Assembly (NCBI GenBank): GCA_021234155.1
Contig: JAJEKV010000014.1
Location: 4,357,563-4,421,562 of the forward strand
Reading direction: 5' to 3'
DNA length: 64,000 nt
From: Isoetes taiwanensis
Taxonomy: Eukaryota > Streptophyta > Lycopodiopsida > Isoetales > Isoetaceae
Shown: positions 1,930 to 50,830 of the stretch, piece after piece
Layout: each line of letters begins with the position of its first letter
Position numbering within the stretch: the first letter of the stretch is position 1
Position numbers and translations under genes: made by a program
The notes under the pieces: generated by a model
Seen by the model: the letters and a program-made list of their open reading frames with translations, nothing else
Databases searched by the model: none
What the model was told of the DNA's origin: nothing

Positions 1930-2800
1930 AGAAAATTCAATAACAAAACCAATGACATGCCTGTTATAGATACTGGAACTGAGAGATCAGTAGTTAAAAC
2001 TACTGATGCTCTCAAGGAGAAAAGAAAAGAAAGGGGAACATTTGTGCAAATGGGTGATGGAGAGCTGCAAGAAGTGGATGAATCTGGAATGCTTGAACTT
2101 TATGATCTCGAAGACATAGTCAATTTGCATGATGTACTTGCTGTTCCAAAAATAATGAGGAACTTAATTTCATTCAGTCAACTAGTAGACATGGATTTCA
2201 TGCTTGTCTTTGACAATAAATGTTGTAAATTGTTCAGGGATAATAAAATTAAGTTCCTTGCAAAAAGAGTTGGAAATCTTTATGGATTTTATAATAAAAA
2301 TTTGTCTGGAAGCATTAATTCTGTTGAAATTCCAACTTTCAAACTGTGGCATGAGATACTAGGGCATGTCAATATGGATAATATTAAAGAAATGGCATAA
2401 AAAATAGAATAGTAGAAAAAAAAGGACTCATAATTGCTGCAGAAGGAGAGGATTCAGTCTGCTATGGATGTATGGTTGGAAAAAGTTCAAGATTACCATT
2501 TCCAAAAAGACAAGGACAAGCAGGTGATTTGTTAGAATTAATTCACAGAGACCTTTGTGGTCCCATCAATGTGAGAAGTTTACAAGGCAGCAGATATTTT
2601 ATTACATTTATTGATGATCATTCTAGATATACCAAATGTTTCTTTCTTACAGCCAAAGATCAAGCCTATAAGGCATATAGAATGTTTGAATCAGAAGCAG
2701 AAAGAAGTACAGGGAAGAAGGTAAAAATCCTAAGGTCTGACAGAGGGGGTGAATATGTAAATGATGTCTTCAAAAAATATTGAAAAGAAAAGGGATTAGA
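1930..2800 (+). pseudogene. pol: Copia protease and N-terminal integrase, truncated
   Basis: The frame contains a protease active-site-like DTG (DTGTERSV), then the pre-integrase segment (LWHEILGHVN), a stop at 2398-2400, and the first half of the integrase catalytic core (HRDLCGP, FIDDHSRY, RSDRGGEY). These supply the first two catalytic aspartates. The third catalytic residue is missing because element homology stops near 2800, just after a second in-frame stop at 2781-2783. The remaining integrase, RT and RNase H of the family occur on the minus strand at 12103-14341. The element is dead. Confidence 0.85.
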
Positions 2801-2853
2801 AGAGAGTAAAGCCTTACCCATGTGTTTTGCTATACTATAACTGCTCTGTCTGG

Positions 2854-2969
2854 CATAAATCAAATTCCTTTAGAAGGAGGTTGCGGTCCACGACATAGTC
2901 GAATGGAAATTCATAAATCAAACTCCTTTAGAATGAGGTTGCGACCCACGACATAGTCGGATGGAAATT
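2854..2969. repeat. 58-bp tandem repeat, two copies
   Basis: CATAAATCAAAYTCCTTTAG starts units at 2854 and 2912, each containing a ...CACGACATAGTCG core. The array begins directly after the point where Copia homology ends. No function recognised. Confidence 0.75.
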
Positions 2970-4144
2970 TGTATACTACAGCAAATAAATAAACAACGAC
3001 GTAGGGGAAAAAGAAAGAATAGAAGAAAATATAAAAGGAGGTTGAGCCAGGCAAGGCGAGCAAATCCTTTGCATCCGTCAAAGAAGGGGCTTAATTTTGA
3101 AGGGTTTTTTTATTTTTTAGAACCGTTCAATTAAAAAATAGCAAATCTTATGGTTAAGATTAGGACACGTCACAAACTTATGTGGCATGCTAGATGGATA
3201 TGCTAGAATTATAAGGATTGTTGTAAGGGGGGTTAAGCAAGCCTGCTAAAAATCGTAGCTTTTCAAGAAAAACTATATTGTATCCTTGAAAAACCACACC
3301 TCCACATACGTATAGTTTTTTTTTAATAATTAAAAAAAAAAAAAAGACAACCCGTCTTTTGTTTTTATTATTGTTTTCGATTGTCGACCAAATGTGGTGG
3401 GGGAGGGAGGTGCGTTAATAAGCATAGTGAATAATCACATGAAAAAATCTTAGCATCTTTGCAAAATTTAACATGCTTCTCAAACTAATAAGAAAAACTC
3501 AATAGAATACAAAATTTTCGATAACTAGCATGTAAAAGCATCCAATATTATGATATTAAAAATGTATATAGAGAAACCATTCCATAAACTAATGATGATT
3601 TCTAAAGACCATTGTAAAATCTAAAATTCATATAATTAAATATATTGCAGATTAGCATTGGTTTTGCACAATCAATATATGCTTAAAACACATCTTTTAA
3701 ACTATTGACGATTTCAAAAAATTATTGTACAACTGTAGAATTCATGTAACTAAACATGATATAAACTAGCGATGATTTTGCCATCTAGAATTCATCTAAT
3801 TAAATATAGTGCAGATCGGCATTGGTTTTGCAAAATTAATATATGCTTAAAACACGTCTTTTAAACTATTGATGATTTCAAAAAGTTATTGTACGACTGT
3901 AGAATTCATGTAATTAAACATGATATGAACTAGTGATGATTTTGCTAAATCAATGTACACTGAAAAACAATCTTATAAACTAGTAATGATTTCTAGAAAC
4001 TAGCTTAAAATTTCAAATTAGTACAAAAAATATGATATGGACTATTATGGGTTTTGTAAAACTAGGAAGGACACATGGTTTTTTTTTACATTGTGGATTG
4101 TCATCTAAGAAAACCACATACATACTGGTTTTCATGCTAATTTT
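2970..4144. repeat. AT-rich spacer with a degenerate 164-bp repeat
   Basis: No gene is supported here. From about 3540 to 4020 a degenerate tandem repeat is visible: CATTGGTTTTGCA followed by AATATATGCTTAAAACAC occurs at 3656 and 3820, with weaker flanking copies containing AACTAGTGATGATTT. It looks like minor satellite or decayed element DNA. Confidence 0.55.
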
Positions 4145-5129: not shown

Positions 5130-7260
5130 GGTTTGATGCAGAGTGCAAGGAACACAAATGCCGGCTCCGCCAAGTCCACGACCACGCTTTTACCCACATG
5201 CGGTCGGACAAGATCGCATCTTCCTTAAAGCTAAGAAAGCCGTACATTGCAGTATCAAAGGGAAATGTTTTACCTCCTCGAACGTCACCCCAGGACCTTC
5301 CTCGGCGAAGGGTTCTTAGAAAGCGATCTGACCCACCGGGGAATATCACTCCCGAGCGGTGGAGGCAATACTTGCAACAACTATACGACCCTCGGGGTGC
5401 ACATGCAAGATTACCCTTGCAAGAAGGCCCCGCTGCTTTGGAAATCACGCATTCGGACGTGGAACAAGGCTTACAACGCCTTGCCAATGGGAAAGCCCCG
5501 ACTTGGATGGTATGCGGCGTAATTGCTTAAGTGGGCGGGGCCGTCCATAATACCAGTCTTGACCGCCTTTGTTCAACAAGGCATTACAGAAGGCTTCCCA
5601 CTGCGGTGGACCAATAGCGAGTTGTTCCCATCTATAAGGCGGGGTGACCCACACCGCCCGACCAATTATCGAACAATCATGGTCGGGCCGGTGTTTTTGC
5701 AAAACCGCTTCTTTGGGATTCTCGAGCAGCAGTTGACGGGCCGGGGCGGCGAGAGGTGCGGGCCCTCACCCGTGGCGAGATTCGCACCAGCACTCAACCA
5801 TTGACCACATCTTCACGCTATGCGAACTCGATTGAAGACAAGCCAGGAACCGCCGATCTATATTGTTGCTTTGTGGATTTTGCGAAGGCGTTTGACACCG
5901 TGCCTCGGGGAAAAACTATGGGCAAGACCGCAATGTACCGGGGGGTCCTCAGAGATTTGCGTAATGCGAATGTACAGGCTATATGAAAGATGCTCGGTCG
6001 ATTCGCGGCAGACAAGCCAACCATTTGATAGTAGTATCGGGGTTCGTCAGGATGCCCTCTCCCCCAACATTGTTTGGGCTTTACATTGATCAATTGGAGA
6101 GGCTTTTGCGCGATAATGGGGGCGATGGAGCTCACATTCTCTATCGATCATCGAGGCGGTTCATATATCGCGATGATGTGGACCTCCTAGCTTACACACC
6201 AGCGGACATGCAACGACATCTCGATGCCCCGGACACATTACGCCAAGCGGCCGATATGCGGCGTCAATCCGCCAAGACTAAGGTGGTTTTCATATCATCT
6301 TCACGTCGGTAGGGGTCCCCTCCTTCGCCACCAAGGCGAGAATGTGGAAGTTGCATCCACATACAAGTATTTGGGAGTGGAGTTTCCTTCTACTATGCAC
6401 TTTGGGACACATCCATACGGCTACGAAAGTGACGGCAGTTTGGAAGGCACTATATGCAATGCAAAACAATAGTCATAGAGCTGAGTTGTATGATTGGGCC
6501 CATCGGTCCACACCTTCAAGGTCTTAGTAGAGCCCGTCCTTTTATATGGGGTGGAAGTATGGGGCCCGATGTATCACTTGCTACCGGAATGACTTGGAGC
6601 AGTCCGAAAAGCCTTCTTAGTACGAAAGCACTAGGGGTGAAGTCCACAATCCCATATCAAATTCTCTACCGCAGGAGACAGGGATTCTTGCCTCTTCGTA
6701 GGGCGCCCCTTGATCGCCACATTGTCTATTTTCGGAAGGTGGTCAATATGGACGATGCTCGCCTCCCTAAACTAGCTTATATCATGGCAATGGGGCCGAC
6801 GCGCCTCAAGGCCTGCTGGAGGGAAAAGAGAGCTCAATGGTTGGCTAGATGGAATGTGCAGAGCACAGTGCATACATATGCAAATAGAGGCAGATCGCCA
6901 TAGCTTGAGGCAATATCTTGACGCTTGCTTCCTCAAAGAAGCTTTGGAATGCCAATGCCCTTGAACATGTCAAGACAAAGACACTATCGGCCACACATAA
7001 ATCCCACATTGGAACGCGGGCCCGAATGCTACCGCGTACCCACTTGCCCATGAAAAGGTGCGCACTCATTGCCTCCATTCGCATTGGGGCACATCATCTT
7101 CGAATTGAGACGGGCATGGATTGGTGAGCCACGCCAGATGTGCTCGGCTCAATGCCGCCAAATGGGAGTCATTGAGGATGAATCTCATACCCTTCAAAGT
7201 TGCCCAAAGATATGATCAAATTCGGACGCTTATTATGCCGAAGTTGGTCGCCCGCCAGCC
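5130..7260 (+). pseudogene. LINE ORF2: reverse transcriptase and zinc motif, many frameshifts
   Basis: Motifs in order, spread over several frames: end of the endonuclease (WFDAECK, ~5135), RT fingers (NGKAP near 5485, RPTNYRTI near 5660), palm A (AFDTVPRG, ~5890), motif B region (GVRQDALSP, ~6040), the catalytic loop with YRDD in place of the usual YADD (~6165), thumb (YLGVEF, ~6370), and a C-terminal zinc motif C-x3-C...EDESHT...CP (~7140-7210). Stops and frame changes occur every few hundred bases, so it is non-functional. The GC content is clearly higher than that of the flanking DNA. Confidence 0.85.
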
Positions 7261-7411
7261 ATTACATGTGACATTGAGCACAGCATCCGTACGGGTGCTG
7301 GGATCATGTACCTTCAGGAGGTTATGGACATGCGAGATCAGCTATGTCCTCGGGCACACACTTGACATGTATATATACATTGATGTATACTTGTACAGTT
7401 TGACAGCATTC

Positions 7412-7484
7412 TTATTACTGCCACGATTTTTCCCTCGAAAACCCTTCGGGGCGGGGTTTTTTTTTTTAACCCGGGCAGTAATAA
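7412..7484 (+). promoter_or_regulatory. Conserved 3'-UTR hairpin of the LINE
   Basis: An outer perfect stem, TTATTACTGC/GCAGTAATAA, encloses TTTTTCCCTCGAAAACCC and GGGGTTTT, which form a second stem. The same layout with different paired bases recurs at 37571-37638, 46937-46998 and 62248-62309. In LINEs, 3' structures are commonly bound by the element's own reverse transcriptase; that role here is inferred. Confidence 0.7.
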
Positions 7485-7562
7485 GTTTGCTGCGCTCCTT
7501 CTGGGTCCCATAGGCCGATTGGCCTCAGTGGACGATAAAAAATCATTCTCATTCTCATTCTC

Positions 7563-37888: not shown

Positions 37889-39144
37889 ATGTCTCTTCTC
37901 TTATGGGCATCTAGTGCATCTAGAAAGGCAAGGGTAGCAACTGCTTTACAGGTGTTGTCTGAAGGCAGTAAGGATGAGTTGTCCGCAATCTTGGACACAT
38001 TGAAAGCTCGACAGAGTCAGCTTCAACAACAATTGCCTCCAGATGATATATTTTACCAGTCTGACTGTCAGGATGTAGTTCAAGCTTCTGTATTCATGTG
38101 GTTGAGGTAGACCATCAAGCTCATATTAAGTGTGCTGAGAACATATCCTCATGTGCAGTCCTTGGTTATTTTACTGGTGGCTATTTGGATTTTTCACGGT
38201 TCCGTATTTGGTTATCTCGGCTTTTGAGACGCCTTCAGCTTCCTCCTTTTCAGTCCATCAAGTTGTTGGCGAAAAACTTTGTTCTTATTATGTTTGAAAG
38301 TAGTGATGCAGTGGACTCTTTGGTATCAAGAGGGATTGATCCGCTTGGTGGAGAGTATATGATGTATCAGTATTACTCTCCTGGTTTTACACCAGATATG
38401 GTTCGCGCATTAAGGATGCCTTGCTGGTTCTCGATACGTAATCTTCCTCCTGATCTAATGGCCCATCAATTTCTAGTTGCAATTGCAAATGGTCTTGGGG
38501 TTCATATCTCACATTCCATCATGAACGGTCCGAGGATTTGTGTCTCCGTGCCAGTGGACTCGGCTTTACCAGATTATATGGTGGTGAAAAGTGGGCCTTG
38601 GTATAAGAAGTTGGATCTTAAGCTTCTGAATGGTCCAGAATTAGCCCTTCTGTTTCCTGACAAGGAGGCTTTTGCTAGCTTTCGTCGAGGCACTCGTGCG
38701 TCTCAGGCATCTGTTCAACCTTCTTCTCAGGCTCAAGCTCCCGTTGTTACTTCTTCATCTATTCATGATCAACCTTTACCAGTTGTGTTGCATTCCTCAT
38801 CCATGGAAGGTGCTCTAATTCCAGTTTCGACAGTGTCATCCTTAGTGCCATCATCTGTACCTGTAGTTCATTCTTCTCTCCATGTTGATGCTTCTTCCTC
38901 TCATGTTTCTGAGGTTGTTATGACTGATGGTCCTAATCTTCTGTGTGCAAAAGAGTCATGGCAGCAGGTCAATTAGAAGAAGGCGGCGAGGAAGAAATCT
39001 GTTATGTCATCTCACGAGGCTATCCCGCCTCGTTCTATTCAGTGGTATGATAATTTGATGTCTGTTGATGATCATCTCGATGTGGTAGACCATGTTGATT
39101 GTGATGAGGCCATTAAACGCCTCAAGGTGGCACAAGGAGTTTGA
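37889..39144 (+). pseudogene. LINE ORF1 (DUF4283-like nucleic-acid-binding protein)
   Basis: Two overlapping frames (37889-38110 and 38098-38976), then readthrough past a single TAG to about 39144. The core reads FVLIMFESSDAVDSLVSRG and MPCWFSIRNLPPDLMAHQFL, the layout of the DUF4283 domain of plant LINE ORF1/gag-like proteins. A Ser/Val-rich, low-complexity C-terminal region follows. No zinc knuckle remains. Because a poly(A) tract follows 120 bp after the end, this is a retroposed copy lacking ORF2. The host-gene alternative (a zinc-knuckle CCHC protein) is less likely. Confidence 0.6.
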
Positions 39145-40390: not shown

Positions 40391-41056
40391 ATGGACTAGA
40401 GAAATATCAAAGTTTGTAACTATCATCAAAAATACGAAAACCTCCAAAACATATTAATTATTGGTCTTATGCAAATCAAAACCTTAATTATTACATACTT
40501 ATCTATGAGAAAGTAGCTATTGCTAGTAGAGCGTGATCTAATAAGCCACTTTTAATCCCGTAGATTCCACTATTCCGATTACTCTATTGGACCTTAAAAT
40601 ACTGCCAAACTACGCATATATGTATCATGAGGAAGAGTGGTCTTAATCCAAAAGAACTTGTGCTATTGACATTATGTTTTACTCAATATCGTTATTTTGC
40701 TGGCAGTAGTATTGTTGACATGTTCATAAAGAAAAGTATAGACATTGGGAATGATGACCTAATGCAAGGCACAACAACAGATGAATCATGGACTAGAGAA
40801 ATATCAAAGTTTATAACTATCATCTCAAATATGAAAACCTCCAAGACATATGTAATTATTGGTCTTATGCAAACTAAAACCTTAACTATCACACACTTAT
40901 CTATGAGAAAGTAGCTATTGCTAGCAGAGCACGATCTAATAAGCCACTTTTGGTCCCATAGATTCTGCTATTCCAATTACTTTTATTGGACCTTAAAACA
41001 CTACCAAACTACCTATATGTATCTTTAAGAAGAGTGGTCTGGATTAATCCAAAAGA
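40391..41056. repeat. 397-bp tandem repeat (copy 1 and start of copy 2)
   Basis: CATGGACTAGAGAAATATCA begins units at 40391 and about 40788. Copy 1 is uninterrupted. Copy 2 is split by element B at 41056/50827 and resumes at 50831-50965. Copy 1 therefore preserves the pre-insertion sequence (CCAAAAGAACTTGTGCTATT at 40648). The repeat itself has no recognised function. 39292-40390 upstream shows nothing assignable. Confidence 0.85.
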
Positions 41057-41100
41057 AACAAGGTGACGGATCAATCGCACTAATGACCTGTAGTGCGATT
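41057..41100. repeat. Left terminal inverted repeat of B with internal hairpin
   Basis: The terminal 34 bp match the right end. Just inside, AATCGCACTA (41073-41082) and TAGTGCGATT (41091-41100) form a perfect 10-bp stem. At the right end the matching zone instead contains two direct copies of ATTAGTGCA (50780 and 50799). Confidence 0.9.
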
Positions 41101-41631
41101 GCGTCCAAAAAAGATTCCTTTTTCAAAAAACCCCAAAATTTGGTACTTTTGGCATATCTTAAGAAAACATTTAGATAAACGGTCCTTTGACCTTAAAAAA
41201 AGTGCATTTTTTAGAACAAACAAACAAAGTACAACATTTATAATTAAAAGGAGGTTGTTTTTGGTAGTATTTTAAACGCTTTTGCACTTGACCTGGGCGC
41301 ACATACACACAAACACAATACTAAGAACAGTTAGAAGCATCAAAGAAATTGCAAAAAATGATACAAGGCCAAAATATGATGTAAAATAGATAAGAATGTC
41401 TATGCGCGCATAGACATGCACCCTGTTTAAACAAGCCACATTTTAAAAAAGTCATCATTTAAGTGCAAATAATGATACAAGGGCGTTTTCATCCAAAGTG
41501 TAGTTTAAAGAAGAAAGGCATGTCTATGCGCGCATAGACATGCTCCCCTTTTTTAACAGACGATTTCTTTTTCAAAGTCAATATTTAAAAATAAATGTTA
41601 TTTTTTTCAGTTTATAATCAGACACACAATT

Positions 41632-44600
41632 TTAAATGTCATGGGGGACCTCCTTATCATTAAGGGGTTCATCATCGGAAACATTGTGTTCTTCACCGTT
41701 GTTCGGATCCGTTTCTTCCTCCTCTTCCTCTTCCTCTTCCTCTTCCGGTTGTTTTTCCACCTCAGGTTCTTTATCTACCACTGGCATCAACTCAACATAC
41801 TCCGCTTGGTGATCAGTGTTGCCTGATGCAGGCATCTGTGGCTCTGAACTGCTTATTCCTGCTTGATCGCCACCGTCCTTCACACCCACTTCTTGTTTCT
41901 CATCAGGCAAGTTCATTAAAGAACATATCCTGGACTTAATGAAAGCAACACTATCAGAATCATACTCCACTGCAACACAGTTACGACCCTTCCTCAAAGC
42001 ACATGAAATGGTCGTGCCAGAGCCCGAAAATGCATCCACAACCCAGTCTCCTGGTTGTGAAAACATTTCCAGAAGCCTGTTGATTAGCTGCTGGGGCTTC
42101 TGGTACGGGTTGACAATGCGACCCTGGTGAACTGGGTCGGTCAACTTCTGTGTAACTGCAGGGAGGTGGAAGACATTTCGGTAGTCCATTCCCTGTGTGT
42201 TGTAGTGTTGTAAGGTCCTGGTGCCTAGTGTGCTGTGGTAACCGATGTGAATCTGTTCAAATACGTTTATAAGTCTAGCACCCCCACCATGGCCACGGAT
42301 GTTGGTCTTCACCCTGTAAAACAAATGAAAGAAGTCAGAGACAATTACGGACACCAAGTTTAAAAGAGATGCAGACTTACCATATCGCGGTTCGAATCCA
42401 AAGATTGCAAGTGTTCCTTCAAATAAGGCTTGAACCAAGCCGGCTTGGTTGGTGGAGTGAAAGACAACGATCCTCCACAAAGGTGCTGTGTTTAGCTTTA
42501 CCAGCCGTTTGACAAAAGAGTCAAACTCTGCGTACTTAAAAGGCGCGTCGTCACCTCGGCTGTCAGGCAACTTAAACCCGTAGGGTATGTCAGCAATGAT
42601 CAAGGAGTAGTCACCAGGTTTCAACACTCTGTCTATCTTCACACAATCCCCCTGGTAGACTTGGTAGAGACAGTGGTGGCCAAATTCATCAAAATTCTCA
42701 AAAGCATCCGGTACAATCGCCTGATCGGCCTCTTGTACCCTTTTCAACTTGGCTCTTTCATCTTTTGCTTGCTTCACCAAAGTCAAGAAACCTGGTGGTA
42801 CCGGGTCTTTTTTTCTCTGCAAGATAAAAAGAAAGTGAGTACACTGCAACTCCATGCGTGCATGGCAAGGCAGCATCAAGTTTGCTGTGCACGCACAACA
42901 AAGATTTAGTTTTGTCCATGCGCGCATAGACAAAACTGAGGTTTTGCTATGCACGCATAGCAAAACCTAAACTTTGTCAATGCGCGCATGGACAAAACTA
43001 AATCTTTTGCCGTATGCGTGCATAGCAAAGACTTCGGCTTTTGTCTATCGCCAAGATAGACAAATGGTAAGATGCAAGATAAAAAGCAAGCAAATACTTA
43101 CCCAGTTAGTAAAATTTGAGGCAAATTGTTTTATCTTCTCATCGGACGAGGAAATAGGGTACAGCTCCTGAACTTTTTCCCAAGTGTCGCAATTTAAATG
43201 GAGCATTAGTTGTTGCTAGTTGTAGCACAATCTTTTTTGCTGCAAAAAATGATGTCGATCACACAGACAAAACCTACAAATGTAAGTGACAGAGTACTTA
43301 CTGTTTAAACTCGTGCTGCATTTCTTCTAAGGTGAACTGCCCGTCGACAACTTTTTGCAGAACCTCGCAAACTTTGTCCATGTTTTTGAGGCCCTGCATT
43401 TCCCTCCAAGGCATCACACTCATATCCTTTTGTTTGGAGGGCTCTCCCCTTTTTCTTTTTGTCTCAGGCTTCTTCCCCTTTGTCTTCAAGGTACCGTCCG
43501 CATACATATCAAAAATTTTCTCCTGCAGATCCCAAATCTGTGGTGCACACACAAAAAAGATTGAGTGTCTATGCGCGCATGGAGTAAGGTGAGATTCAAA
43601 CACAACAACTAGGGAAACTTACCCGGCCGTGCCTGAAGGCTAGCTGAAACAGATTGTCGTATTTAATCAATGAAGTCCTGGCATCTTTTTGATCGTAAGT
43701 CAAACAACACTCAATTGCACATTGCTCCTTTAAAGCGAGATAAGCGTCTGGATCATCCTTTATGTCTTTCTTTCCGGGGTTCTCTGCCCTATAATTATCA
43801 TATTCTCTGTGCATAAATTTAATTTTATCTGGCAAGCTCATGCTCAACCTGTAGTCGTTGTCTACGTTGTGGCTCATAGCAAGCAGTTTTGCTTCAGCGT
43901 CAGTTACACCAACGTAGACGACAGCGTAGAGAGATGAGAAGATTGCTTGCTTGAGTTCTTTCCAATTCTGCCTTTTTGCCTTAAATGTGTGTGTTCCACC
44001 AATCACAATGTACATGTAATTGTCAGCCTCTTCTTTCTTAAATTCTTCCAAGGTTTTATAGTACTTAGGGTCGACAATCACTATGTGTGGGGACACAGTT
44101 GCATTCGACCTGGCCCTGATTCTCTCTTTTAAGGCCGCCAGGTGGTTCGGATAAATCTTTCTTACCTGCAATGACCTGTTACCCTGAGGATCCTTTGGGC
44201 ACAACTTCACTCTATCAATCTGTAAATGCATAATGCCAGGCACCCGGCACCTCTTCTCAATGTCCTCCAGCATTTTGGAGGCCTCGTCCTTGCCCTTTGA
44301 GGCTATCTTCGTGCCGGGTCCTTGGGGCAAGTTACACTTCGAAGACTCCCCCTTTTCTGACTTCTTCGGCTTCCCCTTGACTTTGAATTCAGGCTCTGTT
44401 CCGGTCACAATGCTTGCTTTCCGCCAGTCCGCTGCCGTCTTTTTTTTCTTCTTTTTTGGCAAAACCAGTTCTTCCTCCTCCGAACTCTCCGTCTGTTCCA
44501 CCTCTTCTCCCTTTGGCTCTACCCCTTGCTCTACATCTGGATCTACCTCTGGCTCTACCTCTGGCTCTACCTCTGGCTCTCCCATTTCTGCTTCACCCAC

Positions 44601-45600
44601 CGCCTTTGGGTTCAAGAGTGGATCCTTGCACTTAAGCATCAGGTTCAAGTTTTTACGACAAGATCCCCGCAAAAAAAGTTAGAAAAACCCTATGCGCGCA
44701 TAGACAAACAAAAGTACTTACCTTTTCTTGCTTGAAACAAGCCTGTATGAATTCTTGGGCGTTCTCATTCGCGGACATACTCAGTCTAAAAAACATCGGG
44801 TCAACTAAGTACGTGGTGTCTTCTCCCTTTACGGTGGTGGTGATCGTTATTGTAGCCATGCCGAAAAGTTGAATTTCGGTGATTCTGCCACACTTCTTAA
44901 AATCTGATCCGGTCAACTTCGACTTTGGCAAGGAAGATTTCGTGGCAATGTACAGATACACATAGTGCCGTGTCTGGGGATATTCACCACCTCTAATGAT
45001 TAACCATTGACAGTTCCTACAGAAGAGAGAACCGCCATCATTGCGGGTCCACGCTTGCGGTGGTAAAGGTAGGGAGCTTCAGGAGCGGCACATCCTCGAG
45101 AAGGCTTTACGCCTTTGGGTTTCTTCCTCTGAAAATATAAAGTACAAATGAGTCGAAAAATAAAGAATGCTACAAAACAAAAGCGAGACTAAGTAAAGAG
45201 TGAAAACAAAAACATAATAAACCTATGCGCGCATAGACACACTAGGTTGTTGTCTAATGACAAGTAGACAAAATACCTATTGTGTCTATGCGTGCATAGA
45301 CATAAATGGTTTTTTGTCTATGCATGCATAGACAAAAACCTAGGGTATCTATGCGAGCATAGACACCTTAAGTTTTTGTCTCTGCGTGCAAGGACAAAAA
45401 AGAATTGTGTCTATGCGCGCATAGACACAACACTAGCAACTACCTACATATTTGCCTAAAATACAAAAATATACGAACAAATATCTAAAAAGTAGTGCAA
45501 CTAACCTATTTTTCATTTTCCACACAAGCTAACAACATCTAAAAAATGCAACAAACTAATTCTAAAAATAGGCAGGAAAACCGTACCTTGAACCTGCCAT
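41632..45600 (-). CDS. ParB-like domain plus beta-class N6-adenine/N4-cytosine DNA methyltransferase
   Basis: Multi-exon gene. Exon 1, 45600-45587 (MAGS); exon 2, 45126-44722, with FCRNCQW and a frameshift near 45045; then an acidic linker exon to 43623, holding a ParB/sulfiredoxin-like domain (VIGGTHTFKAKRQ near 43990). Short exons 43537-43302 and about 43214-43101 follow, then 42816-41632, interrupted by a 63-67 bp intron near 42314. The last exon has methyltransferase motif IV as DIPYG (42591-42577), NPYQKPQQLINRL, and motif I DAFSGSGTT (~42036-42012). Motif IV before I defines the beta class of amino-methyltransferases acting on adenine N6 or cytosine N4. An acidic tail ends in VPHDI. ParB-methyltransferase pairings are known from phages and bacterial mobile elements; introns and location argue against contamination. 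Confidence 0.85.
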
Positions 45601-45814
45601 TTCAGCGAGTGCTATACAGAGTTGTATGGAGATGTTCTGCAAACTTGGGAGAAGAGAACTCGAAGGCGAAGCGAGGCGGAGCGGCTGGCGCCTAGAAGCA
45701 AGGTATCTATGTGAGAAATTATTTATACTCCGTATTCGTAGTTGCAGTTTTCGTATGGAAAGATACATGGACCGTATATTTTTTTCCCATGGGGTTGCTT
45801 ATAGTACTAGTGCC

Positions 45815-46030
45815 GTCTATGCGCGCATAGGCAACTGAGTAGACTTATGTTTATTTACTGAACCTATGCGTGCATAGTATTTGTTTCCTAATCCCATGCG
45901 TGCTTAGGATTTGTTTAGGCCATCTATGCGCCATAGATAGGCAACTGAGTAGACTTATGTTTATTTACTGAACCTATGCGTGCATAGTATTTGTTTGCTA
46001 ATCCCATGCGTGCTTAGGATTTGTTAAGTG
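45815..46030. repeat. 110-bp tandem duplication in the divergent promoter region of B
   Basis: GCAACTGAGTAGACTTATGT occurs at 45831 and 45941, and each unit carries a CTATGCGTGCATAG palindrome and CCCATGCGTGCTTAGG. The block lies between the start of the methyltransferase gene and the first plausible transposase exon, where a shared regulatory region would be expected. Confidence 0.8.
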
Positions 46031-46164
46031 GAATGTATGGGATTGCTCAGTGGATTGTCAGTGGACTTGCTTGTTAGCAACCGTGCCGAAGTTTTTATTC
46101 TGTACAAGTAAGTCTTACACAAGCTGCTTTTGTCTTGCAGCAAAACATGTCGACACGGTGATCC

Positions 46165-49100
46165 ATGTTAAGCCGAAGTCCACGACATTTTGTTTTAGCT
46201 TGCACGGTGGTAAGTTCTCGCTCTCCCTCACCTCCACAAGACATTACAAATCGTGGCAAGAATCCTCAAGAAGAAATGGAGGAGTCTCCGCCCCCCGCAC
46301 ATTTGATCCGCCCCTCTTCCACATTTGTCACTCCTTCACCCACTCACATAATACGCCGCCGTGTAAATTTAGAACTCCTTCGCCAAAAACTTTCCACCAA
46401 GGCAAATATTCTCCATCTCCTTCATCGCAGGCACTGAAAATGGGAGGTCCTTCTCTTTTTGATACACCTTCTCCTTTACAAGGAGCACATCAACCCCGTG
46501 TTAGCCCGGGGCCCACAGCTCTACCTGCGTTCCCAGCTGCCCCTGAAAAAGTGCAGACTCATTGCCTCCATTCGCCGCAGTGCCCACCATCTTCGCGAGA
46601 TCGGTGCGGGTGGATTGGGGAGCCCCGCCAGACAAAGCTCTGTCGCTTTGTCAAACGGGTGCCATTGAGGATGAGTCTCACACTTTCCGAAGTTGCCCAA
46701 ATTGGGTCAGTCCGGGGCGCCAGCACGCTCCCTTAGTGCGGCTGGACTTGCCCTTGCATTTGCGATGAACACACCGTCGATCGTGCCCGGGGGTCGCGTA
46801 CATTCAGAGAGGTAATCTTGGACTGCGAGGTCACATTTGCCCCCGCCTGGCTGCCCGCTAATTAGGCACTACGGGTGTGGTGTATGACTATATATATTTG
46901 GGTGTTTCTGCATTTTATATGTTAGTCAGCAGGCTGATTGCTGCCACGGTTTTTCCCTCGAAAACCCTTCCGGGCGGGGTTTTTAACCCGGCAAAATCCG
47001 CTTTGTCGCTTTTTGTATTGGGTCCCATAGACCGATTGGTCTCCGTGGACGATAAAAGTACCTTCCTTCCTTCCTTCCTTCCTTCCTTTTAAGGAGCTCG
47101 AACAAACACTGGAGGATATTTCGCGTTACGCTAGGCAGATTCCACAACGAAGTAAGGGACCTTCTCTGGCAGAGAGGGTTGAAGAGGAAGATATCTCCAC
47201 GCTGAGAAGAAAAAATCAAGGACACTATTTCCACGGTCATTCTCCACTTTGCTCAACCTAATTAAGTGACGCCGAGGTTCGTACACCAGCCGTCATAACA
47301 AGCGAGTACCACAAGAGAGCCCTCCTTTGCAAGATCTAGCTTTTAAGAATCCCTACAAAGCCAGAAAGAGATTTAAAAGGGATCCTTTAAAAAAAGTTTT
47401 TCGTACAGTGTTACGGAACAAGCTCATGGGCTTGAAATATCTGAGGCCTTTAAGGAGGCTAACCTGTTGTCAGAAAAAATGTTTGCAGTCCTTCACATTT
47501 TCTGCCATAAGGAACGCAAGGCATAGCTTTCACATCAATGACCGGGGTGACCAGAAGCTTACCCTCGCTATTAACGCCGCCGAAGACGGAGACAACTTTT
47601 CTTACTACATGATGAGGAAAACTGTTTGTCAACTAGCTTTCAAAAGCATACATGCCTTAGGTAGCCGGCGAATGGCTAGAGTGCAGAAACGCTTGGATTT
47701 GAATCCACGTATTGATGACTACTGTCACCCAAAAAAAATAGTTGGCATGTACTGTTTAGAAGCGAAGGCTTGGCTTGTGGATTTCTTTGACAAGAATTGC
47801 GAAAGGTTGCCAAACAAATTCGGTTTATCATCTAATGGATAGCTTTTGCAAGAAAGAGGTCTATTCCTTGTACAAAGATCTCTTCCGTGCTTGGGACGAA
47901 GTTCATTTCTTACTCCTACTTCCTTCCGGTTGTGGAAGCGGAATTTAACCTCGTTAGGATTCAAGAGACACAGTTTTCCGTCTGCGCGCCTCGTTCTCTT
48001 TTGAAGGAGAAGAGATCTCGACTAAGGTTCCCGCAGAGAGAAGTAAGTACCCACGTTCATGTTTACCTACACGCACAATCAATGTTTTCATCGATCATGC
48101 TGGCTTAGTCAAAAAATCAATCTTGTCTATCGCGCCGATAGGGAAGAGTGTTTTTGTCTATGCGTGCATGGGCAAAGAAACAAGGTTTGCACCCGGTTGG
48201 TCTTCATGTCCACTTTCGAGCAAAGTGTCCTGTCTATGCGGCGCATAAGCATAGGACACCGATTTTAGCGATCTGTTTAAGTAAACCGACAAAGCTTCTC
48301 ATTTTGTTGCTTGATCAAATTTCGCGAAGACTCCAAGAGCACGAGAGGCTCGGGTTTAGAGAGAAGGAAACTTGCGAAGCATCGAAAAAAATCAAAACAA
48401 TCTGGAGAAGCCATTACAGTATATGTCTGTTGTGATTGATGGCATGGACCAGAAAAAGACAAACCTGTCTCACTTTGTGAATGTTCCTAAAGAGTTACCG
48501 GAAGCGGATTTTTTGAGGTTGCATTTAGTTGGCGCCCTGATTTTTAATTGTGGTGAACTGCAGAGTTTACTTGACTTACCCAAACATTCATGGTGATCCT
48601 AACCTTCTTGGACAATTCTTAACAAGATATTGTCGGCAAAAGAAAAGCTACCTCCGGTTTTTTATGTGCAAATTGGACAATACCACCGGAGAAACAAAAA
48701 CCGTGTATTCTTTGCTTTACGTGCTATCTTTGGTAGAGCTTGGCATATTTAGGAAGGTTAAAGTGGGCTTTCTTCTAGTGGGTCACACACATGACCAGAT
48801 CGACCAGATGTTCAGTCGCTTTTCGGTGAGACTCCGCAGAAAAAAAGCTTTCTGTCTTGACTCCTTGTTGGAAGTGATTGAACAATCTTACAATCCAGAA
48901 CCGGTTATCGAGGTCTTAGCCGAGACTATCGATTTCCGTGAATTTGTTTTTCAAAAACAGTCTACTTCAGGTCCTGCCATCCACCCGCTAAATAATTTGA
49001 CATTTCAGCATCATGTCAAATTCAAAATTCGCAACGGGAAAGCTTGTCTTCAAGGTAAATACTTTGTAACCTCCAAGTCCTGGCTGCCTGAACCAGGGTT

Positions 49101-50036
49101 GGAGTACCTTAAGTTTATCCCAGACGTTACAGAAATGAAAAGAGCTTTGCAGCAGCCCCTAAAAAGTTCCATTGACTACACCAAAAAGAATCCAGCCAAG
49201 GATCCCTTTGTCTCGCTGGCCAACATGGAGAAAAACATACGGTTGGGATTTAAGTACTTCAGTGACGTAGACAAACGCTGGTGGGAAGACTGGTTTGAGG
49301 TCATGACAGATTTAACAAAGATCTTGAAGAGCACTGTCTTAGAGGTTCCCTTTAGATGGCCTTGTAGTTGGCCGTCACAACCTGTTCAAATTCCACAGGA
49401 AAGTGCAGTCGGGACTGCACTCCCCAGCCTGGTGAATAACAAAGAACCTGACCGTCAAATGTATTTAGGGGCGAGAAAAGCAGTAAAAAAGAAAGTCGGT
49501 CAAACTCCAGAAAAGCTTGCAGACTTACAAAAGGACATGTTAATAGCAGTCCCTTCAACAGATGACGATGAGGAGCGTCCTTTCTGGATTGCAAGGGTCA
49601 AAGATATTACCTACAAAGATAACCTTCCTTCCGGTTGTAAAGGTTCACCGGTATGCCACTAAGGCTCTGAGATCCATATACTGGTAGATATGATCCTCAA
49701 GTCGTTCCTGTCAAGAAGGGAAGGAAAACAATGAATAAGAATCACGTGGATGATGTCAACTTGAATGAAACAGCTGTCCTTGCCTACGACTTTACTTTGA
49801 GGGTTGATAATAAACTTCGCAGCACAACAGTTACATTGTTGAAGGAACAAATCGAGGACAGCTCGGACGACACTGAAGAAACTGAGGAGCCTACTTCGTC
49901 CAGTTCTTCAGGCGAACCAACAGAGGGTCCTAGTAGTGGAGATGAAGAAGGAATCGATGAGTATGACGACGTTCCTGATGAAGCCACTCTCGCCGATTGG
50001 CAGCGCGCTAACCCTGGCAAGAAGCTGCTATTGTAA
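46165..50036 (+). pseudogene. DUF7869-type transposase of element B
   Basis: N-terminal pieces lie at 46165-46437 and 47091-47260, separated by the nested LINE. 47327-47842 carries the segment CQLAFKSIHALGSRRMARVQ. About 47840-48060 continues with VYSLYKDLFRAWDEVHF. The RNase H-like core gives IDGMDQKKTNLSHF (48432), then, in 48550-49662, KLDNTTGETK (48669) and GHTHDQIDQMFSRF (48781); these hold candidate acidic catalytic residues and are hallmarks of DUF7869 proteins of plants, algae and animals. The C-terminus (FWIARVKDI, then 49731-50036) is acidic. Frameshifts near 49640 and 49690 and between the main frames, plus the LINE insertion, suggest an inactive copy, although some gaps may be introns with palindromes. 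Confidence 0.75.
46487..47090 (+). mobile_element. Nested 5'-truncated LINE fragment in B
   Basis: AAGGAGC flanks both sides (46480-46486 and 47091-47097), a 7-bp target duplication. The body starts within ORF2 (NPVLARGPQLYL), includes the zinc motif with EDESHTFRSCP, and keeps the 3' hairpin (46937-46998) and the GGGTCCCATAG...GTGGACGATAAAA tail. It ends in a CTTC microsatellite. It is the same family as 4990-7562. The insertion is younger than the element B copy that it interrupts. Confidence 0.85.
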
Positions 50037-50792
50037 AGGTGTAAATTTGTAGTTACATTCCTGCTATGCACGCAGAGGCTTTAATATTTTTGTACGTAAG
50101 TTGTTTGAAAAGCAAGCAAGACTTTTGATATTTGTTGTGATACACTCTTGCTTTGCGTGCAAAGCTTGTGTAAACTTTGTAATGATGTTGAATATTAAAC
50201 AAAAAGACCTTTTGGAGTACTTTTTTTATTTTCATTTGCTGAAATAATTTTTTTGTCTTGGACTGTCTATGCGCGCATAGACATTTTATCTTAAAGTTTG
50301 TTCCAGGCTTGGTGAATGAACTCAGACAGTGCCTTCTTTGCAAGCTTTTTAGATCTTAAGTGAAAGAGATTCAAGCTCGTACAGCGTTTCGAGTGATTTG
50401 TATTATTTTTTGGTATACCAAAAAATTTCTAACTGGGACTGTCTATGTGCGCATAGCACCTTGTCTCCCAGGTTTTTCTAGGACTACTAACGGAACCTGT
50501 ATTTTTCCTTTTTTGCTAGCTTTTAAAAGTTGTACTAGCTAAGATTCCAACTATTTTTTTTTTGTTGATTTCTTGTCCGTGCTAACTTCCCCAAGTTTTT
50601 TTTTTTGTTTTTAGGACACCCAAAAATGGTGCACGGAAAGTAAAAAGAACAGCATTTTTTAATAATTAGACGCCAAAAAGAGCACCTGTTAACTAAATTT
50701 GTAGTCTATTTTTTTGAGTGACCCCCCAAAAGTGGTCGAATTTAAGGGAATCTTAGGGAATCTACAAAAGATGCTTTTTATTAGTGCAATTG

Positions 50793-50826
50793 CAGGTCAT
50801 TAGTGCATTTGATCCGTCACCTTGTT
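50793..50826. repeat. Right terminal inverted repeat of B
   Basis: The reverse complement begins AACAAGGTGACGGATCAA and continues in register with the left end, with two mismatches at positions 19-20 of the repeat. It is followed by AAGA, the target duplication. Confidence 0.9.
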
Positions 50827-50830
50827 AAGA

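Follow-up and report, generated by a model that had tools for sequence, protein, structure and literature searches.

The window analysed here is a stretch of 64,000 nucleotides from the lycophyte Isoetes taiwanensis, and positions 41057-50826 of it are occupied by a single 9.77-kb unit that has the ends of a DNA transposon. The terminal inverted repeats of 34 nucleotides (41057-41090 on the plus strand and 50793-50826 on the minus strand) match at 32 of 34 positions (94% complementary), and the target-site duplication AAGA, read directly from the sequence, flanks both ends (41053-41056 and 50827-50830). These ends enclose two divergent genes, of which the minus-strand gene codes for a ParB-like part followed by an amino-methyltransferase, and the plus-strand gene for a DUF7869-type transposase. 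In the former, the sequence DIPYG (motif IV, 42577-42591) precedes DAFSGSGTT (motif I, 42010-42036), which is the order seen in beta-class enzymes, and the segment GGTHTFKA (43977-44000) lies upstream within the same gene. The latter contains the sequences DGMDQ (48438-48452), LDNTTGE (48673-48693) and GHTHDQID (48781-48804). All these features had been proposed in a first-pass annotation of the window and were recovered here, with Pfam profile matches to PF01555 for the methyltransferase (E=1.4e-17) and to PF25273, or DUF7869, for the transposase (E=2e-32); of its three domain assignments only the ParB-like one is unmatched by the corresponding Pfam profile, ParB_N.

The ParB-like/methyltransferase gene is divided into about seven exons, which were predicted by placing splice sites by eye from the consensus. 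It begins on the minus strand with a short first coding exon carrying the ATG (45587-45600), followed by an N-terminal exon with a CxxC pair (44722-45128) and a large exon (43623-44665, with an approximate 5' boundary) that holds the ParB-like domain at about 43620-44264. Next come an exon that we term the mid exon (43302-43537), which has a counterpart in 20 of the 21 related loci of Isoetes, L028 being the one without it, and a small exon (43102-43239) between the ParB-like and methyltransferase parts. The two terminal exons, 42381-42816 and 41632-42313, carry the catalytic motif IV and motif I respectively. The transposase gene has a first large coding exon at 46147-48042 and a second at 48313-50036 (with an approximate acceptor), the DUF7869 domain lying at about 48565-49059. 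The window copy is damaged: its first large transposase exon is broken by an insertion of ~0.6 kb (about 46480-47090), which ends in a (CCTT)n run and is not found in the ten other full-length copies fetched. When judged against the reading frame of those other copies, it further shows several frame breaks and an apparently altered acceptor preceding the ParB-like exon.

The unit is a member of a mobile family, here termed family A. A search of the I. taiwanensis assembly (1,658,258,908 bases in 1,110 contigs) with the 17-nucleotide end, allowing one mismatch, recovered 81 and 65 places on the two strands, whereas the reversed control gave 0 and 2, and the 90 exact ends listed gave 24 inward-facing pairs less than 20 kb apart. 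Thirteen of these pairs are 9,161-9,770 bp long and nine are 3,575-3,914 bp long, while one measures 12.5 kb (G000 C80:212162-224653) and another 17.3 kb (C974:8082723-8100041). The last two, which are perhaps copies with nested insertions, were left out, and we fetched ten of the 12 other long (9.2-kb) pairs and seven of the nine short ones. Perfect 4-bp target duplications flank 16 of these 17 copies; one long copy, L008, has a 5-bp TTACC repeat in its flanks instead. The ten fetched long copies all align across both genes, and with the window included both genes are present in 11 of 11 full-length copies, the long copies being mutually 89.6-95.8% identical. The short copies have only their outer parts in common with the long ones, ~430 bp on one side (split into pieces in L014) and 130-175 bp on the other, and all seven carry neither gene, their longest open frame being 174 amino acids. 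There is no case among the fetched copies of the methyltransferase gene missing beside a retained transposase gene, and this gene is not a single-copy host gene, but one of high copy number with at least 150 PF01555 places above the cut-off. Inverted repeats bounded by target duplications at independent sites establish the unit as a cut-and-paste DNA transposon, and a host gene, chance ends or unrelated neighbours are ruled out by the copy number, the target duplications and the whole-length alignment of 11 copies.

Related families with the same gene pair are widespread in this genome. With both the PF01555 and DUF7869 profiles, all 150 scored places, the best 150 of 1,444 and of 9,907 rough candidates respectively, lay above the cut-off. 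A listed DUF7869 place is found less than 20 kb from 24 of the 150 listed methyltransferase places, and the two are head-to-head in 22 of these 24, while seven position-shift controls gave 0-2 such pairs. Seven of these neighbouring pairs (L018-L024) were fetched; all have both genes and constitute a second family, B, which has its own ends (AACA..GATTGC..) and 4-bp duplications in six of the six complete elements read, and shows about 30-60% amino-acid identity to the window element in the longer matches. Ten further loci chosen by the methyltransferase all have the ParB-like and mid exons, and three of four loci chosen by DUF7869 alone carry the methyltransferase gene, that of L028 being interrupted after its N-terminal part. 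Sola-1 transposons make 4-bp target duplications, as do the fetched family A copies and family B. Such duplications are also reported for Sola2 (PMC3627910). The element may be classed provisionally as Sola-1-like, its transposase being known here by matches to Pfam DUF7869 (PF25273). Among the family B elements, identity is 77-96% for the transposase halves and 71-94% for those with the methyltransferase; L019 and L022 contrast strongly in their mutual identity between halves (94-95% versus 77-85%), whereas L019 and L023 are similar throughout (86-96%). It is possible that the methyltransferase module in family B changes faster or is exchanged.

Ratios of non-synonymous to synonymous substitution rates (dN/dS) were calculated from stop-free pairs with an estimable dS, dropping those with stops, fewer than 60 codons or an unestimable or near-zero dS; the pairs share loci and are not independent. 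For family B, the median dN/dS is 0.02 in the methyltransferase motif-I region (29 pairs, range 0.01-0.55), 0.17 in the motif-IV region (4 pairs, 0.02-0.53), 0.03 in the ParB-like part (3 pairs), 0.06 in the mid exon (18 pairs), 0.05 in DUF7869 (10 pairs, 0.04-0.42) and 0.04 in the N-terminal part of the transposase (14 pairs). Medians within family A over all pairs are 0.54-0.72, and we did not use them for inference because frame-broken copies distort these values. Both genes are under purifying selection, and the methyltransferase is therefore a working part of the element. This selection, the presence of the gene in all 11 full-length copies and the same layout in related families together uphold the first-pass proposal of a transposon with an integral methyltransferase. 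The same data reject the notion of a passenger methyltransferase that does nothing for the element, to which we give next to no credence: stops or frame breaks do occur in the methyltransferase of most family A copies, but the transposase is broken in them too, dN/dS between families is low for the methyltransferase and the transposase alike, and the arrangement of the pair stayed constant as far as it was observed.

The gene pair was also encountered on contigs outside Isoetes. When GTDB contigs were pattern-scanned with the methyltransferase profile, matches came from just five, which all belong to a single bin labelled (uncultured) Trichormus sp.; the cyanobacterium Trichormus azollae lives in the fern Azolla. 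Since the methyltransferase-type genes on these contigs are broken by intron-like gaps and have DUF7869 neighbours, we take the contigs of this bin (L040-L058) to be eukaryotic; they are apparently contamination of the bin by a fern or by some other eukaryote. Eight contigs of the bin carry DUF7869, in open frames of 529-924 amino acids, and the ParB-methyltransferase gene is head-to-head with the transposase in all five that hold both, the other three being uninformative on layout as only ~0.8-0.9 kb of sequence precedes their first transposase match. One neighbouring frame on these contigs gave no match in a Pfam scan. Their dN/dS values, obtained after removing two loci that duplicate other contigs and with most other pairs saturated at synonymous sites, are 0.019-0.052 for motif I (4 pairs), 0.097 for motif IV (1 pair), 0.023-0.024 for the ParB-like part (2 pairs) and 0.045-0.059 for DUF7869 (3 pairs).

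A further feature of these elements, overlooked in the first-pass annotation along with the algal ParB-methyltransferase transposons, is a set of family-specific palindromes. The window element has 17 sites resembling TGTCTATGCGCGCATAGACA at up to five mismatches, four of them exact, and the remaining 54 kb of the window has none. Two exact 20-bp copies lie downstream of the methyltransferase stop (at 41397 and 41521; 41397-41540). Within the methyltransferase gene there are three intronic sites at 31-bp steps (42913-42994), an interval that folds as a long hairpin, single intronic sites with three mismatches at 43566-43585 and 44687-44706, and an array of six in intron 1 (45220-45427), five of which are at 31-32-bp steps. 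The rest comprise a site between the divergent genes (45814-45833, two mismatches), one in the transposase intron (48155-48174, three mismatches) and two downstream of the transposase gene (50264-50459), of which that at 50264 is exact and that at 50440 has four mismatches. The ten other long copies of family A have 4-20 such sites and the seven short copies 1-6. Among the latter, 21 of 27 sites fall outside the segments that align with long copies, or 15 after setting aside six that adjoin the shared end and may have been inherited with it.

The family A palindrome reads CTAT-GCGCGC-ATAG. Family B has none of these sites and possesses its own, TGTATTCCGGAATACA (GTAT-TCCGGA-ATAC); likewise, a third family, C (L025, L026 and L030), has GTATGAATTCATAC (GTAT-GAATTC-ATAC), and a fourth, D (L027 and L034), has GTATAAATTTATAC (GTAT-AAATTT-ATAC). 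The four share the frame (C/G)TAT-hexamer-ATA(G/C), and the inner six-base palindrome differs by family. An exact 14-mer palindrome occurs at least twice in 20 of the 21 other Isoetes loci, the sole exception, L037, having seven imperfect family B sites, while dinucleotide shuffles (50 for each of 22 loci) produced at most one exact copy. Across the genome there are 600 family A sites at up to one mismatch (control 0), and 3,392, 64 and 12,556 exact sites of families B, C and D (controls 0, 11 and 17). The contigs of the Trichormus bin show a comparable palindrome, GTCGATGC-NNN-GCATCGAC, with a centre that is mostly CCC or GGG; full sites are present on seven of the 11 contigs read (four on L040, two on L051, four on L052, ten on L057, three on L058, one on L054 and two on L056), and on some of the others the upstream region is missing.

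These sites are almost all noncoding and, in many cases, regularly spaced. At ten Isoetes loci, 124 of 127 sites fall outside a coding mask built from exons read by hand in the window and from tblastn matches at the other loci, and the three within it fall in methyltransferase matches that possibly span the short intron of the gene. Considering gaps of less than 70 bp between neighbouring sites, 69 of 78 are 41-43 bp in family B, 21 of 38 are 31-32 bp and 17 of 38 are 60-65 bp in family A, and 17 of 28 are 27-32 bp in family D. Similarly, L040 of the Trichormus bin has four sites at 41-bp steps, and L057 has ten in one row (2553-3033) at 50-52-bp steps that alternate between 51 and 52. Steps of ~31, 42 and 51 bp correspond to three, four and five turns of B-DNA. 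Plain tandem duplication as the sole source of the arrays is rejected, as the linkers vary between sites and families; unit duplication may still add to the equal steps of an array, but by itself it leaves whole-turn steps across different families unexplained. The sites decay chiefly at the central CpG in family B, and to some extent there in family A too, with C-to-T and G-to-A changes predominating. Letters of the TAT/ATA frame rarely change in families B, C and D, and it is the right-hand half that changes more in family A.

As for the protein domains, the methyltransferase has the motif IV signature (D/N/S-x-P-Y/F) ahead of motif I and matches PF01555, as is characteristic of beta-class amino-methyltransferases. 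The nearest solved structures are CcrM (6.7e-11) and M.RsrI (1.2e-7), and the nearest in general are mostly adenine enzymes, with one weak match to an N4-cytosine enzyme; the protein is predicted to be an N6-adenine or N4-cytosine amino-methyltransferase. The ParB-like identity of the large exon is likely but unproven. An untrimmed profile comparison aligned it with the ParB boxes at E=0.02. AlphaFold models of this exon had a predicted local distance difference test score (pLDDT) of 44.6 from a single sequence and 43.2 with five alignment rows; the latter, a low-confidence model, shows the strand/helix order b-a-b-b-a-b-a, as in ParB/Srx. When 350,542 PDB chains were searched with Foldseek using this low-confidence model, the first hit was a sulfiredoxin (E 0.14) and the second a ParB-N domain (E 0.34), both weak, and these represent the two branches of the ParB/Srx superfamily. 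Profile searches of the PDB with the ParB-like part and DUF7869 gave nothing or only weak matches. The box of the GERR type that binds cytidine triphosphate (CTP) is absent, with GGTH, GGNH or GGSH at that place in all aligned sequences; clustered palindromic sites on the element itself, as in ParB-parS systems, are present.

The first-pass annotation had also suggested that the element follows a phage-like strategy, which our searches do not support. A tblastn search of 50,697 phage records gave no match to the ParB-like exon up to E=1, and the methyltransferase matches 86 phage records with 22.7-26.1% identity in the 15 listed. A pattern scan of IMG/VR, a type of scan with limited sensitivity, found no relatives of the ParB-like exon, and on viral contigs the DUF7869 search led nowhere while that for the methyltransferase gave one weak match. 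For capture from bacteria, the corresponding GTDB scan with the ParB profile was empty, which proves little because it missed the five Trichormus-bin contigs that hold the ParB-like exon. Recent capture from a phage is rejected, as the ParB-like exon has no match in the phage records searched and the methyltransferase is only distantly phage-like.

Taken together, the best explanation that we can offer is that we are dealing with a damaged copy from an old and very successful two-gene DNA transposon lineage in a land plant, whose ParB-like methyltransferase reads the palindromes of its own family and marks its own element; as a whole, we give this account an even chance of being correct. Multicopy, family-specific, noncoding palindromes that lie in duplex DNA at helical steps would suit a dimeric protein that binds cooperatively. 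The methyltransferase is favoured as this reader because many sites lie in or just upstream of its own gene, both in Isoetes and in the Trichormus bin, because its relatives include an enzyme acting on GAATTC, the core of family C, and because ParB proteins bind palindromes of 16 bp. The site of M.RsrI is GAATTC and that of CcrM is GANTC. The family B palindrome TGTATTCCGGAATACA and the bacterial parS consensus are of the same length, with TGT...ACA ends and a CG centre, and agree at five of eight half-site letters, which may be due to chance. We infer the identity of the reader, the methylation of the sites and its benefit as follows: the ParB-like methyltransferase, probably a dimer, would recognize the palindromes of its own family, bind cooperatively across the array, and methylate adenines, or else cytosines at N4, within the sites or close to them. 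Such a mark on the control region of the element might tune the two divergent genes; alternatively, it could keep this region open despite CG methylation by the host.

Several observations weigh against this account. The core of family A, GCGCGC, is without adenine and that of family D, AAATTT, without cytosine, which means that no single type of base within the hexamer could be the target in all families and the shared TAT/ATA would have to be. The ParB-like part has no match to Pfam ParB_N (PF02195), and a trimmed hhalign profile comparison with bacterial ParB was no better than shuffles, 21 of 100 of which scored as well. No full palindrome was found on L053, L055, L041 (which has half-sites) and L042 (one half-site) of the Trichormus bin, and family C has no gap of less than 70 bp at the stringency used, while equal steps inside an array may in part come from unit duplication. 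The CpG decay suggests that host CG methylation reached the palindromes anyway. As regards selection, some stop-free family B pairs have a high dN/dS, reaching 0.55 for motif I, 0.53 for motif IV and 0.42 for DUF7869, and the mid exon gives 0.49-1.14 within family A (5 pairs). Finally, no DUF7869 element shown to lack the methyltransferase was found among the four Isoetes loci picked by DUF7869, and hence the transposase may be the reader.

An extended form of the account, which we put forward only tentatively, envisages a self-addressing system in which the ParB-like methyltransferase loads on family-specific palindromes, spreads or clusters along the element in the manner of bacterial ParB at parS, and writes a non-CG mark on its own family only. 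If this were true, the palindromes would lie on one face of the helix, with GCGCGC, TCCGGA, GAATTC and AAATTT as six-base codes within the TAT...ATA frame; the enzyme and its address would evolve in step, much as specificity does in restriction-modification systems, and derivatives without genes would be recognized by their palindromes.

The transposase is the main rival as reader. The arrays could be binding sites for it (or for a host factor) in transposition or autoregulation, the methyltransferase acting elsewhere, e.g. on the ends or the whole genome, and we regard this as a somewhat doubtful but serious possibility. Subterminal repeats of En/Spm and Ac offer a parallel to such a reader. 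It would fit the persistence of sites in the 3.6-kb copies, which are necessarily mobilized in trans, and their retention in L028 despite its interrupted methyltransferase gene; likewise, family B keeps one palindrome, with transposase sides that are 77-96% identical and methyltransferase sides that are 71-94% identical. However, most sites are internal, in methyltransferase introns and the intergenic region, with no crowding at the ends, and in the Trichormus bin the full sites occupy the upstream part of the methyltransferase gene or the space separating it from the transposase gene.

A hairpin function comes second, and appears unlikely to us: the arrays would form hairpins in RNA or cruciforms, and serve in small RNA production or splicing, or spread by template switching or unit duplication without a protein reader. 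The folding of two window arrays does surpass that of shuffled sequences by a wide margin (z -14.9 and -11.4), and in families A and B the flanks beyond the core are complementary above the between-site control. Moreover, adjacent family A linkers match better when inverted (0.58 versus 0.34; 7 linker pairs), and the alternating 51/52-bp steps and CCC/GGG centres in the Trichormus bin suggest inverted units. Yet extension of the arms is weak in family D and was not observed in family C even though the cores are exact, a hairpin could do without an identical hexamer core at more than 12,000 sites, and single scattered sites occur besides the arrays. Less probable still is that the ParB-like domain, like some of its prokaryotic counterparts, is a nuclease, i.e. 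a nickase or DNase dependent on nucleoside triphosphates, from which the methyltransferase shields its own sites in a restriction-modification-like addiction or as a donor-site tool. In Bacillus cereus, the ParB-methylase Bce_0392 is reported to have a nonspecific DNA-nicking activity (PMC5512222), but every sequence in our alignments has GGTH, GGNH or GGSH in place of the GERR box.

With regard to known systems, bacterial ParB-parS has short palindromic sites in clusters, as do the Isoetes elements. CcrM and M.RsrI, the nearest solved structures, are adenine methyltransferases that likewise belong to the beta class, but are stand-alone bacterial enzymes. Prokaryotic ParB-methylases are reported to join a ParB/Srx-like domain to an adenine methylase (PMC5512222); the Isoetes ParB-like exon differs from these, as from ParB-parS, in having GGxH for the GERR box and no phage sequence match. 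ParB-methyltransferase transposons have already been reported from algae (PMC12477816). One of them, Sola1-1_Ec32 from the brown alga Ectocarpus, is described as having a ParB-like and N4C/N6A methyltransferase gene on the strand opposite the transposase (PMC12477816); it is 21.5 kb long with a protein of 1104 amino acids, in contrast to ~9.2 kb in the Isoetes lycophyte, the pair being present here on the Trichormus-bin contigs as well, and the part of its published account available to us makes no mention of palindrome arrays, a selection test or a copy census (PMC12477816).

Other eukaryotic parallels are more distant. The cytosine methyltransferases of dinoflagellate and charophyte retrotransposons are also DNA methyltransferases encoded by transposons and thought to methylate their own DNA, but they are C5-cytosine enzymes of host origin in retrotransposons, and the accessible portion of that report mentions no element-specific palindromes (PMC5890265). 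Fungal TET/JBP dioxygenases similarly furnish several DNA transposon superfamilies with a DNA-modification enzyme as a recurrent second gene; they oxidize 5-methylcytosine rather than methylating amino groups, and a ParB-like domain goes unmentioned in the available part of the source (PMC12730594). The bdelloid rotifer N4CMT is reported as a bacterial-type amino-methyltransferase tied to transposons in a eukaryote, but it is a host gene with a chromodomain fusion that silences transposons and is not carried by an element (PMC8885841). Our literature searches, which covered titles and the openings of abstracts, with most subscription papers outside their coverage, found no report of palindrome arrays or of ParB-methyltransferase transposons in vascular plants. 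The gene pair is of a known kind, and the palindrome arrays appear to be new in these searches.

Transposons that write DNA marks are known in a few lineages. The present element seems to display an address, in the form of thousands of exact, stepped and family-specific palindromes in DNA where nothing else evident would call for their retention. The AMT1-type pathway of N6-methyladenine (6mA) is reported to have been lost in plants (PMC12695648), and a transposon-made mark of 6mA or N4-methylcytosine should therefore stand out. As the Isoetes assembly is described as based on Nanopore reads of DNA from isolated nuclei (PMC8566536), the question of self-marking could be answered without new sequencing if these are native reads with their raw signals kept, and this family may allow a direct test of a transposon marking its own DNA.

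The insertion at 46480-47090 looks like a retroposed repeat, and relatives of it, 75-79% identical, are found at window positions 7029-7208 and 7398-7540. Elsewhere, the window holds a Copia-type gag remnant at 901-1698 (PF14223, 4.7e-12) and a DUF4283 frame at 38065-38976 (PF14111, 3.1e-10).

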